A stretch of DNA of 64,000 nucleotides from NCBI GenBank assembly GCA_902596375.1, contig CACJTU010000005.1:21639-85638 (forward strand), written 5' to 3'. Numbering within the stretch: the stretch's first letter is position 1; each line of letters starts with the position of its first letter. Below, one piece after another: positions 13,192 through 17,483 of this stretch. The DNA comes from an uncultured Pelagibacteraceae bacterium. GTDB taxonomy: Bacteria; Pseudomonadota; Alphaproteobacteria; Pelagibacterales; Pelagibacteraceae. The notes beneath the pieces were generated by a model. That model had not been told where the DNA came from. It did no database searches and worked only from the letters and a program-made list of their open reading frames with translations. The position numbers and the translations under genes were made by a program.

Positions 13192-13968
13192 ATGGCAATA
13201 ATTAAAAAATTTCGTATTCGCAGTTTTAAAAAATTAGATACAGTAATTGAGTTTGAGAACGTATCTTTATCATTTGGAAATAGATTAATTTTAGACAATT
13301 TAAATTTTAAGATAAATAAAGGCTCTATACATGGTATGCTTGGCCCTAATGGCGCTGGGAAAAGTACAATCTTTAATTTAATTACAGGGTTACTTAAGCC
13401 AGATAGTGGAACAATAAAAATTTTTGGGGAAGATGTTACTCATTATCCAGTTTATATTAGAACAAGAAAATTCTCAACTTCTTACTGCCCGCAATATAAT
13501 GGCTTCTTCACCGACTTAACACTTCTTGATAATTTGAGGGCTATCAGTGAAATTGTTATTGAAAATAAAAATTATAGAACAGAAAAAATAAACTATCTAA
13601 TCTCTAAATTTGAATTTGATAATATAAAAGATATTAAAGCACGTTTCTTGTCTGGAGGACAGAAGAAGCGCCTAATCATCGCAATGGCTCTTTTAAGTGA
13701 TCCAAAAATACTTCTATTGGACGAAGTTTATGCTGCCCTTGACGTCCTCACTATTAAAATGATGCAGGAAATAATTGTAAATTTACAACAAGAATATGGT
13801 ATAACTACATGTCTATGCGACCACCAAGCCCGTGACCTCTTGGCAACTTGTGACATCGCCATGATACTCAGTAATGGAAAAATTGTTGCTGAAGAAACAC
13901 CTTCTAATTTGGTAAAAGATATAAATGCAAGAAATGCTTACTTTGGTGAAAATTTTAAATTCAATTAA
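13192..13968 (+). CDS. lptB: LPS export ABC transporter ATP-binding protein LptB
   Basis: A 258-residue cytoplasmic ATPase. Walker A is GPNGAGKST (residues 52-60), the signature is LSGGQKKR (near 155), and Walker B KILLLDE is followed by Val where LptB normally has Pro. The H-loop His lies in LCDHQARDLL and the C-terminal ARNAYFGENF matches the LptB tail. It energises LPS extraction with LptF and LptG, which are not in this window. It follows lptC by one base and precedes aroA by five. Confidence 0.93.
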   Translation: MAIIKKFRIRSFKKLDTVIEFENVSLSFGNRLILDNLNFKINKGSIHGMLGPNGAGKSTIFNLITGLLKPDSGTIKIFGEDVTHYPVYIRTRKFSTSYCPQYNGFFTDLTLLDNLRAISEIVIENKNYRTEKINYLISKFEFDNIKDIKARFLSGGQKKRLIIAMALLSDPKILLLDEVYAALDVLTIKMMQEIIVNLQQEYGITTCLCDHQARDLLATCDIAMILSNGKIVAEETPSNLVKDINARNAYFGENFKFN

Positions 13969-13973
13969 TTTCA

Positions 13974-15296
13974 ATGCCAAATTCAGTAGTAATTCATAGT
14001 AAAATAAAAAAATTTAAAAAAATTATTTCAGTAAGTGGTGATAAAAGCATTAGCATAAGATGGGTGCTATTTTCCTCTCTCGCTAAAGGAGTATCAAAAG
14101 CAAAAAACTTACTACTTTCAGAAGATGTTTTGGCTGCAATAAAAACTATTAGAAAACTAGGAATTAGATCAGAAATAAAAAAGAATGAGTGTAAAATTTA
14201 TGGAAAAGGAATTAATGGATATAAATACAAAAAAAATCTTACACTGAATGCTGAAAATTCTGGAACTCTTGGAAGATTAATACTTGGCTTATTAATCAAC
14301 TCTTCAAAACCAATTAAATTAATCGGAGATAATAGTTTATCAAAAAGAGATTTTAAAAGAATTGCAGACCCTTTAACAAAATTTGGAGCAAAATTTAATT
14401 TAAAAAATAATAAAAATTTACCTTTAACTATATTTGGTTCAAAAGAACTTAAGCCTATTAAATTCACTGAAAAAAAAGGGTCCGCTCAAGTAAAAAGTTC
14501 AGTAATTTTTGCTGGTATGAGAACTAACGGTTTAACATTCATAAAAGCAAAGAAATCTAGAAATCATACTGAGTCCATGAGTAAATATCTTAATTTACCT
14601 TTAAAAGTGATTAGTAAAAAAAATTATGACAAAATTTATGTATCGAAAGTAAAAAAAATAAAAAATTTAAATTATAATATACCTTCTGATATTAGTTCTG
14701 GTGCTTTTTTTATGGTTTTAACTGCCTTGTCTGAAAACTCTCAACTAGTTATCAAAAATGTAAATATAAATCCATCAAGAATTGGGATAATTACAATTCT
14801 AAAAAAAATGGGCGTAAAAATATCTTTTCAAAACAAAAAAAATTATAAAGGCGAAAAAATTGCAGATATAAAAATTAAAGGTGCAAAATTAATTAAACCA
14901 ATCAATTGTCCTGCTAGGTTAAATTCAAGCGCTATCGATGAATTTTTAGTCATCTGGATTTTAGCTGCTAAGGCTAAAGGTATATCTTATTTTAAAAATT
15001 TAGAAGAATTGAATAAAAAAGAAAGTCCTAGACTTATTTGGGGTTCAAGAATTTTAAATAAGATGGGTGTAAAAAATATTGTAACCAAAAATTCAATTAA
15101 AATTTATGGTAACCCGAACTTAAAAATTAATAAAAAAATTATAATTAAAAATTATTTGAAAGATCATAGAGTATTTATGACAAGTGTAATTGCTGCATTA
15201 TCTTTTGGAGGAGAATGGAGTATAGCTAATCCTGAATCGATAAAAACCTCATTTCCTAATTTCTTAAAATTAATAAATGAATTAAAAAAACAATGA
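13974..15296 (+). CDS. aroA: 3-phosphoshikimate 1-carboxyvinyltransferase (EPSP synthase)
   Basis: Joins phosphoenolpyruvate to shikimate-3-phosphate. The 440 residues include the substrate loop VSGDKSISIRWVLFSSLAKG, NAENSGTLGRLILGLL (the conserved N-x-G-T-x-x-R), and IPSDISSGAFFMV near 240. ESPRLIWGSRIL near 350 and the C-terminal KDHRVFMTSVIAAL are also conserved. It is much richer in lysine than most homologues, as other proteins here are. The stop overlaps the first codon of the cmk remnant (ATGA), the normal aroA-cmk junction. aroK and aroB of the same pathway are at 62.3-63.9 kb. Confidence 0.95.
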   Translation: MPNSVVIHSKIKKFKKIISVSGDKSISIRWVLFSSLAKGVSKAKNLLLSEDVLAAIKTIRKLGIRSEIKKNECKIYGKGINGYKYKKNLTLNAENSGTLGRLILGLLINSSKPIKLIGDNSLSKRDFKRIADPLTKFGAKFNLKNNKNLPLTIFGSKELKPIKFTEKKGSAQVKSSVIFAGMRTNGLTFIKAKKSRNHTESMSKYLNLPLKVISKKNYDKIYVSKVKKIKNLNYNIPSDISSGAFFMVLTALSENSQLVIKNVNINPSRIGIITILKKMGVKISFQNKKNYKGEKIADIKIKGAKLIKPINCPARLNSSAIDEFLVIWILAAKAKGISYFKNLEELNKKESPRLIWGSRILNKMGVKNIVTKNSIKIYGNPNLKINKKIIIKNYLKDHRVFMTSVIAALSFGGEWSIANPESIKTSFPNFLKLINELKKQ

Positions 15297-15732
15297 AAAA
15301 ACGAAGTGACATATTATTAAAGGTAACAATCGATAGTCCAGCGATGGCAGTTGCTGGCACACAAGCAAAACTTATTGGTAAGCACTAATAATTACTGGTC
15401 TTGTAAACAGGCCGTGTCTATCGTTTCGTTGTAAATATTAGATTACTCCTGTTTGGATGGCCGTGATATCGGATCTGAAGTCGTAAAGAATGCGGATGTA
15501 AAATTCTACATAACTGCTAATTTAAAAGTAAGAGCTAAAGGCAAAAAATAAAAAGATAACGTATAAAGATGTCCTAAAAAGCATTAAAAAACGTGATAAA
15601 AGTGATAAAAATAGAAAGATTTCGCCCCTTAAAAAAACTAAAGATATGGTATTGCTGAATTGCAGTTCAGAGTCTATAAGCAGCTGCTTTATGAAAATAA
15701 AAAAAATAATAGATAGGAAAATTTATAATTAA
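15293..15732 (+). pseudogene. cmk: Decayed cytidylate kinase gene
   Basis: Four segments resembling Cmk survive in the right order but in three reading frames. Frame 1 starts at 15293 with VTIDSPAMAVAGTQAKLIGKH and stops at 15386; the P-loop GPAxSGKGT has become SPAMAVAGT, losing the Lys. TGRVYRFVVNI (15407-15439) continues frame 1. DGRDIGSEVVKNADVKFYIT starts at 15456 in a second frame and runs to a stop at 15549. The C-terminal part, with ITYKDVLKSIKKRDKSD, is in the third frame (15553-15732). About 100 residues between the second and third segments are deleted. Both operon junctions persist: ATGA with aroA, TAATG with rpsA. Confidence 0.9.
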
Positions 15733-17483
15733 TGGAAATAGAAGTTTATCCAAGCTCAACTACAGCCTCTCAAGAAGAATTCAAAGAATTATTGAAATCA
15801 GAATTTTCAAAAAATAAAAACGTAGAAGAAGGAAAAGTAATTGAATGTACAGTAAAAAAGATTACTGACAATTATTGTTATCTTTCCGCTGATGGACTGA
15901 AGCAAGAACCTGTTTTAGATACAAGGGAATTATCTGCACACGGTTTACTAGACAAAATTAAAGAAAATAGCAAAATTGAAGTGCTCCTCGAACGTCTCGA
16001 ACACCCAAAGACAGGTGAAATAATTGTATCTTATGAAAAGGCTGTCAAATTGGCTGGGTGGAAACGTATCGTCGAGCTTCATAAACAAGAAGAGCCTGTA
16101 AACGGGAAAATTTTAAGACGTTGTAAGGGAGGGGCTGAGGTTTCATTAATAGATTTGGGACTCGTGGCGTTTCTACCAGGCAGCATGATAGACGAAGCTC
16201 CAATGAAAAACTTTGATCATTTAATTGGTCAACCACAAAAATTTGCCATCGTCAAGCTGGACATGCAAAGAGGTAATGTAGTAGTTTCAAGAAAACATAT
16301 AATAAATTCTTTCAAAACAGCTGATAAGAAAAAGCTAATAGAAGGCTTTAAAGAAGGCGATGTTGTTACTGGTACATGTAAACAGTTAACTTCGTTTGGA
16401 GCTTTTTTTAGTCTAGATAATGGTCTAGACGTCTTGTGTCACACTAGTGAATTAAGCTACTCACGTGTCAATCACCCTAATGAGGTCGTTTCGGAGGGCC
16501 AAAAAAAACAGCTAAAAATTATTGGTGTAGATTTAGAGAAGCTGCAGTTATCGACGTCAATTCGAGGTTTACTGCCAGACCCATTTGATAATATTGATAA
16601 GTATGAAGAAGGAAAAATTTACAAATGCAAAATTATAAAGTTGACGGAATTTGGTTTCTTTGCGACTCTCGAAGAGAATTTAGTCTGTCTATGTCATCAA
16701 TCAACTTTTTCTCATACAAAAAAAAATATTGCAGCTAAAAAATTATTTTCGGTAGGTCAAGAAATAGATTTAGCGATAACAGAAATACAAAAAGATCAGA
16801 GAAGAATTTCACTTAGTTACAAGGATACAATTCCTAACCCATTTGAAGAATTTTCAAAAAAATACAAAGTGGGAGACATACTTAATGCTAAAATAGTTTC
16901 TAAGAATGAATACTCATTATTCGTTAAAGTAGATGATATTAAAGACTTAGATATTTTCGTGCATTCAAATAACTTGGTATGGACTGGCAATAGCGATGAA
17001 GAGTTAGCTAAATATAAAGTTGGAGATAGTCTTAAAGTCAGACTTTTAGAGTATAACCAAGAAGAACAAAAAATTAGAGGGGGTGTAAGAGAAGCACTTG
17101 GGCCTGACCCAATTTTATTTTTTGAAGATAAAAATGTTAATGACGTAATTTCTTGTAAAGTTATTTCAGCAGACAAGAAATTAGGTTTAAAAGTTCAACC
17201 AATTGGATGTGAATTAGATTTTATTATTAAAAAGTCTGCTATAAGTTCAAATCCTGCTGATGCTCGCGTAGAACGTTGGACTGGTGGTGAAACTCTTGAC
17301 GTTGCGATTGCAGAAAAAGATTTAAAGAAGCGAAAGATAGTTCTTTCAATTAAACTCTTAGAGCAGCTTGAAAAAGCTGAAGCTTTGGAAAAATACGGAG
17401 CTGAGTCTGGCTCTGGAAGATCACTTCCATTTAGTGGTCTCGCCGATACGCTAAAACAAAAAGAAGAAGATAATAAAGAATAG
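15732..17483 (+). CDS. rpsA: 30S ribosomal protein S1
   Basis: A 583-residue protein built of repeated S1 (OB-fold) domains. Clear repeats include GKILRRCKGGAEVSLIDLG, VTGTCKQLTSFGAFFSLDNG and YKCKIIKLTEFGFFATLEE. Each is followed by linker motifs of the DxxRGNVVVSRKH or DQRRISLSYK type. S1 recruits mRNA to the small subunit, especially leaders without a strong Shine-Dalgarno sequence, which are common here. Its ATG shares one base with the final stop of the cmk remnant, so some coupling could persist across the dead gene. The ihfB gene follows after 11 bases. Confidence 0.96.
   Translation: MEIEVYPSSTTASQEEFKELLKSEFSKNKNVEEGKVIECTVKKITDNYCYLSADGLKQEPVLDTRELSAHGLLDKIKENSKIEVLLERLEHPKTGEIIVSYEKAVKLAGWKRIVELHKQEEPVNGKILRRCKGGAEVSLIDLGLVAFLPGSMIDEAPMKNFDHLIGQPQKFAIVKLDMQRGNVVVSRKHIINSFKTADKKKLIEGFKEGDVVTGTCKQLTSFGAFFSLDNGLDVLCHTSELSYSRVNHPNEVVSEGQKKQLKIIGVDLEKLQLSTSIRGLLPDPFDNIDKYEEGKIYKCKIIKLTEFGFFATLEENLVCLCHQSTFSHTKKNIAAKKLFSVGQEIDLAITEIQKDQRRISLSYKDTIPNPFEEFSKKYKVGDILNAKIVSKNEYSLFVKVDDIKDLDIFVHSNNLVWTGNSDEELAKYKVGDSLKVRLLEYNQEEQKIRGGVREALGPDPILFFEDKNVNDVISCKVISADKKLGLKVQPIGCELDFIIKKSAISSNPADARVERWTGGETLDVAIAEKDLKKRKIVLSIKLLEQLEKAEALEKYGAESGSGRSLPFSGLADTLKQKEEDNKE

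Follow-up and report, generated by a model that had tools for sequence, protein, structure and literature searches.

Decay of a cytidylate kinase gene upstream of rpsA in a SAR11 genome: probable displacement by an accessory copy and a putative rpsA promoter in the remnant

Xenologous gene displacement, in which a homologue is acquired elsewhere, a two-copy stage follows and the old copy is lost, is a known process. The locus described here resembles it in these respects and differs in that a single genus shows the stages and what is left at the end is a putatively promoter-bearing scrap resembling the lost 3' end. In Escherichia coli, the promoters of rpsA are reportedly located in or near the cytidylate kinase gene cmk. 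The E. coli cmk-rpsA operon (Fricke et al. 1995, as a reference entry in PMC3603445) has cmk directly 5' of rpsA, as was ancestrally the case here; the SAR11 locus departs from it in having a dead cmk and a promoter-like element that persists in the cmk 3' end. A second point of comparison is HVR2 (Wilhelm et al. 2007, PMC2217521), described in SAR11 as a region of surface genes flanked by the 23S and the 5S gene. Variable cell surface genes beside a 23S rRNA gene are found at our locus as well, whereas a CMP kinase replacing a core gene goes unmentioned in the passages of that paper on HVR2, and its main text contains no word that begins with "cytidyl". The SAR11 strain HTCC1062 is reported to be without pseudogenes (Giovannoni et al. 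2005, as cited in PMC4285135).

The window, by which we mean the whole 64,000-nucleotide stretch of DNA analysed, is C5:21639-85638 of G000, a SAR11-type genome of 1.16 Mb in 41 contigs that is 87% complete. It contains an intact aroA (13974 to 15296, plus strand), with 70 to 75% amino acid identity to three close relatives, and rpsA, encoding ribosomal protein S1 (15732 to 17483, plus strand), the single copy found in the genome. The 435-bp interval between them is without a complete gene. The original prediction placed a decayed cmk there, and the analysis bore this out. With the genome's own intact Cmk as the query, tblastn recovered Cmk pieces in order and in three frames: residues 5 to 48 at 50% identity in frame 2, residues 117 to 145 at 69% in frame 3, and residues 151 to 203 at 62% in frame 1. 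The PF02224 profile matches two of the remnant pieces, with E values of 1.3e-8 and 3.2e-8. The N-terminal piece (15293 to 15440, plus strand) holds the start codon, a damaged P-loop region and all three in-frame stops. The middle piece (15441 to 15537, plus strand) carries the LDGRD motif in a different frame after a 200-bp deletion, and the C-terminal piece (15532 to 15732, plus strand) is open for 66 codons in the third frame. Both junctions read from the sequence at the outset are real, the TGA of aroA overlapping the old cmk start codon (ATGA) and the stop of the C-terminal piece overlapping the rpsA start (TAATG).

Of the intact relatives found, the one nearest to the remnant is the cmk of the single cell AG-325-E08 (L113:3345-4001), which likewise lies between aroA and rpsA. 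Nucleotide identity to it is 81 to 88% over most of the length (81% at 15294-15400, 68% at 15401-15450, and 88% at 15451-15731), with 200 bp missing after 15440, another 20 bp missing after 15537, and an insertion of 3 bp; the larger deletion removes about 67 codons, not the approximately 100 residues first estimated. The 434 aligned bases include 69 substitutions. By codon position the differences number 18/146, 14/144, and 37/144, and third positions thus still lead, as expected if the death of the gene was recent. First and second positions together differ at 32 of 290 sites in the remnant versus 9 of 158 over the final 79 aligned codons of aroA, numerically in the direction expected if constraint is relaxed. 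The region from 15293 to 15732 is homologous to an intact gene found at the corresponding position, its frame is disrupted, and on this sequence comparison it is the dead ancestral cmk of an aroA-cmk-rpsA operon. The idea that it is instead the leftover of an accessory copy was rejected, as its DNA matches the native AG-325-E08 cmk, which is placed among native cmks in the tree described below.

The result rests on a single assembly of the source genome, which speaks for another reading, that the remnant is an assembly or consensus artefact and that aroA and rpsA flank an intact cmk in the real genome. Two deletions, three stops, and the substitutions counted above exceed the usual assembly error, even if some of the substitutions are ordinary divergence; moreover, aroA and rpsA alongside are intact, and an intact cmk lies on the same contig. 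We regard an artefact as very improbable.

One supposed sign of decay did not survive comparison. The P-loop Lys missing from the remnant had been counted as lost, but Ala occupies the Walker A Lys column in 21 of the 63 intact Cmks compared, all of them of one subclade (17 native and 4 accessory), with Lys in the other 42. Because all 21 subclade Cmks have Ala, the missing Lys was inherited and is not decay. Genuine P-loop changes of the remnant are at other residues, a Gly among them. The P-loop of intact subclade Cmks reads DSPxxxGAGT or similar, and in these proteins (for example, those of L113:3345-4001 and L004:414-1064) the Walker A Lys-to-Ala replacement goes together with the retention of most other active-site residues.

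It had also been argued that loss of CMP kinase should matter unless the enzyme was replaced, and a search of the rest of the genome was proposed. A whole-genome PF02224 search recovered an intact cmk at G000:C5:414-1064 (L004:414-1064; minus strand), about 36 kb from the remnant on the same contig, so that replacement elsewhere gained support and the concern over a missing enzyme did not. The predicted protein of 216 amino acids covers positions 1 to 210 of the 211-position profile (E value of 3e-42 and 144 bits in the genome search; 146.5 bits versus a cut-off of 26 when scored against the curated threshold). Its Walker A motif has Ala in place of the Lys of GKGT or GKST, and it is filed in the Cmk family on other features. 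In E. coli Cmk numbering, which we take as the source of the CMP-binding positions, it keeps R41, R110, D129, R131, D132, R157, R181, D185, and R188, while S36 is Thr and S101 is Ala. It is 53 to 60% identical to the native subclade Cmks compared. We infer that a CMP kinase is still encoded in the genome, with the accessory Cmk predicted to be active.

The neighbourhood of the accessory gene consists of a 16S-tRNA-tRNA-23S array (L004:4328-8949), followed by cytidylyltransferase, aminotransferase, and formyltransferase-like genes and then cmk; the contig ends about 400 bp further on, with the 5S side outside it. With the 23S rRNA gene alongside and surface genes within it, the site looks like the SAR11 hypervariable region HVR2. 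The link between the accessory cmk and the window runs across the rRNA operon, and metagenome assembly can produce chimeras at such operons.

Across the genus, the state of this locus is as unusual as had been claimed. Among the matches listed, cmk lies directly before rpsA in 91 of 92 genomes, with G000 as the sole exception, the 92 being genomes with both genes among the best matches listed and a group with a divergent cmk elsewhere being left out. A cmk row for G036 was added and counted, and a second cmk of G183 was added and left uncounted because its rpsA is unlisted. Among class-level genomes the cmk-rpsA order occurs in five of the six having both genes, and in the sixth they are on separate contigs. 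The group left out carries its divergent cmk, which scores about 100 bits, at another place in the genome. Twenty of these genomes, chosen for that property, all have an aroA-rpsA gap without cmk, with 99 to 254 bp between the aligned genes; the cmk-less gap of the single cell AG-422-C20 is 121 bp.

More than one PF02224 match (E values up to 1e-6) was found among 300 genus genomes in G000, G080, G088, G183, and G280, and G080, G088, and G183 each carry another full-length cmk in addition to the copy before rpsA. In a tree computed in quick mode, the four accessory cmks (G000, G080, G088, and G183) fall outside the 17 native subclade cmks, whose clade has a support of 97, and the AG-325-E08 cmk falls inside that clade. 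The native cmk of G080 is from another subclade, which suggests that its accessory copy was probably acquired horizontally. The two cmk matches of G280 have equal scores and lie in opposite directions on one 23-kb contig (C11:6289-6888, plus strand, and 16131-16730, minus strand), possibly as an inverted-repeat assembly or amplification artefact.

The genes near the accessory copies bring in another reading, in which the accessory gene is not a CMP kinase but serves a sulfation or surface cluster (for example, as an APS-kinase-like enzyme) and the cell either is without CMP kinase or uses one as yet unfound. ATP sulfurylase is present in four of four genomes with an accessory cmk versus none of four chosen others, both small samples, and it adjoins cmk in G080 and G088 and lies one gene away in G183; an APS kinase model partially matches (4 to 90 of 152) in G000 and G088, as it does in most genomes searched. 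Against this stand the identity to native subclade Cmks, the largely kept CMP-site residues, and the gene between sulfurylase and cmk in G183, which is itself an APS kinase. A cell without any CMP kinase would in addition be expected to grow badly, and we give this reading very little credence. The sulfurylase loci are in L043, L045, and L195 and at G000:C20:7419-8531 (L212), and a sulfotransferase gene is beside cmk in G183. The sulfurylase-cmk neighbourhood looks like a surface-sulfation module.

The original prediction further suggested that the remnant may be kept for rpsA expression, and a promoter-like element in the cmk 3' end, which is still present in gaps without cmk, lends support to this. 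In the window it consists of TTGCTG (15652-15657), 17 bases, and TATAAG (15675-15680), an element (15652 to 15680, plus strand) that begins 80 bp before the rpsA start; the general form is TTG[AC]T-N17-TAWAAG. As a -35/-10 pair at 17 bp it is conserved as a pattern and is a weak match to the sigma-70 consensus. A generic sigma-70 scan of 13960-15760 left it unflagged and returned seven promoter-like sites versus a mean of 9.8 in shuffles.

We searched 99 distinct sequences upstream of rpsA for TTG[AC]T, any base, 16 to 18 bases, and TA[AT]AA[GA]. The pattern is present in the remnant, in 45 of 50 subclade cmk 3' ends, and in 20 of 24 cmk-less gaps (the 20 chosen genomes and AG-422-C20, plus G158, G181, and G299), and in none of the 21 cmks of the other in-place subclade or the three outgroups. 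Shuffled sequences match at 0.6 to 1%, a rate that is only a guide, the pattern having been drawn from such sequences. The four gaps that miss the strict pattern (L148, L154, L164, and L165) keep a near variant. When the aroA-rpsA gap was compared in relatives, as had been proposed, all 21 cmk-less gaps examined, those of the 20 chosen genomes and AG-422-C20, retained the stretch with the element, 17 strictly and 4 as near variants. In matching cmk-bearing sequences the element starts 79 to 80 bases before the rpsA start codon, inside cmk, and in cmk-less gaps 52 to 78 bases before it. With 49 cmk ends and 21 gaps anchored at the element, identity was 0.60 upstream (at most 0.35 when shifted), 0.53 in the spacer (at most 0.37), and 0.69 downstream (at most 0.56). 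Cmk ends and gaps are thus alike outside the hexamers too, which suggests that the gaps most likely hold the final scrap of a lost cmk.

Codon usage within cmk points the same way. All 48 distinct subclade cmks before rpsA use TTG as the Leu codon of the first hexamer, whereas TTG makes up 8.2% of their other Leu codons; in the relocated copies the hexamer codon is TTA (G000 and G183), GTT (G088), and TTG (G080), or TTG in one of four. This codon test was run after the element had been found. Its sequences are related, so that its probabilities are overstated. Synonymous identity peaks in the last 17 cmk codons, which are rich in Lys and Ile, at 0.80 to 0.84 versus a mean of 0.59 (51 sequences, three of them relocated). 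We infer from these patterns that the element is a putative rpsA promoter.

If the element were irrelevant, the remnant would be an ordinary recent pseudogene, made redundant by the second cmk. The high identity to its intact relative over most of its length suggests the recent death that such an account needs. Both window hexamers are those of AG-325-E08, but at 11% divergence over 12 bases their retention is insignificant alone. The C-terminal open frame is likewise within reach of chance: 32% of neutral simulations leave a comparable 64-codon stretch open, and coupling of translation at TAATG is accordingly no more than a possible ground for retention. The ordinary account fits poorly with the 24 distinct cmk-less gaps that retain the element-bearing stretch, strictly or as near variants, and with the TTG codon fixed before rpsA, unlike in relocated copies, and we consider it unlikely.

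The downstream gene seems to have a history of its own. The window rpsA is only 52 to 55% identical to its closest counterparts in the genus, although identity among three sister rpsAs is 89 to 94%, whereas the window aroA is normal in its relatedness. The same rpsA type occurs in the Pelagibacteraceae single cells AG-422-C20 (91%) and AG-325-E08 (70%), giving a divergent allele common to three SAR11 genomes (window 15732-17483, L112:4001-5752, and L113:4001-5749). In a quick-mode tree, these three share a branch that lies outside 41 other rpsAs of the genus, with G010 also outside on its own long branch. Between AG-422-C20 and the window, identity is 62% for aroA, 91% for rpsA, and 93% for pyrF, while hup, which lies between the latter two genes, is at 67% and trpF at 81%. 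This patchwork suggests that recombination has moved rpsA. Import from outside SAR11 was rejected: the best match among 142 class genomes was 38%, in the same family, making this a divergent SAR11 allele and not one imported from the lineages that were sampled. Local hypermutation of cmk and rpsA, considered because GC3 is 0.30 to 0.33 in part of rpsA, was dropped, since AG-422-C20 and AG-325-E08 share the rpsA type and the latter has an intact cmk. Within window positions 15054-15731, AG-325-E08 is a closer match to the cmk stretch and the final 79 aligned codons of aroA than to the flanking aroA and rpsA, with third-position differences against L113 of 0.10 to 0.30 versus 0.37 to 0.63 in the flanks, which points to a recombined tract.

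We observed a dead cmk, a second cmk that is intact, accessory genes that group separately, and the element with its conservation pattern, and we think it probable that an acquired accessory cmk displaced the old one, which now erodes around a trapped rpsA promoter. In this model the accessory gene beside the rRNA operon would have been active and in place before decay began, taking over CMP phosphorylation and supplying CDP; the ancestral cmk would be dying because of that takeover, having become free to break. It would be eroding rather than cleanly deleted because the putative rpsA promoter lies within its last ~80 bp, the part expected to stay. Selection on the element would slow the loss of the remnant and keep the cmk 3' end for rpsA transcription, with transcription continuing from the upstream operon and coupled translation at TAATG as possible additions. 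Several points weigh against the model besides the possible chimerism at the rRNA operon, the weak sigma-70 match, and the absence of the element from the other in-place subclade. ATP sulfurylase is by the accessory copies in three genomes, which might mean a shift of substrate; transcription of the operon could start upstream; and the relocated G080 copy still has the TTG codon.

A broader reading, on which we are evenly divided, is that in SAR11 a core enzyme gene doubles as the carrier of the rpsA promoter and that acquired CMP kinases, some from a hypervariable region, repeatedly replace the enzyme while the old gene shrinks stepwise to the promoter. Its stages would be two copies (G080, G088, and G183, the expected intermediate state), a decaying copy (G000), and a promoter scrap (AG-422-C20 and at least 20 genus genomes). 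No paper listed in our searches on SAR11 cytidylate kinase, on rpsA and cmk promoters, and on SAR11 hypervariable sulfurylase reports this finding in its title or abstract. SAR11 is the textbook streamlined genome, and here a core gene is caught in the middle of its loss, with a likely reason for its dispensability and a likely reason for its lingering 3' end. If this account is right, the hypervariable "surface" region would also be a source of substitutes for core metabolic genes, and the way in which a gene can be lost would be decided by regulatory DNA that it carries for its neighbour.
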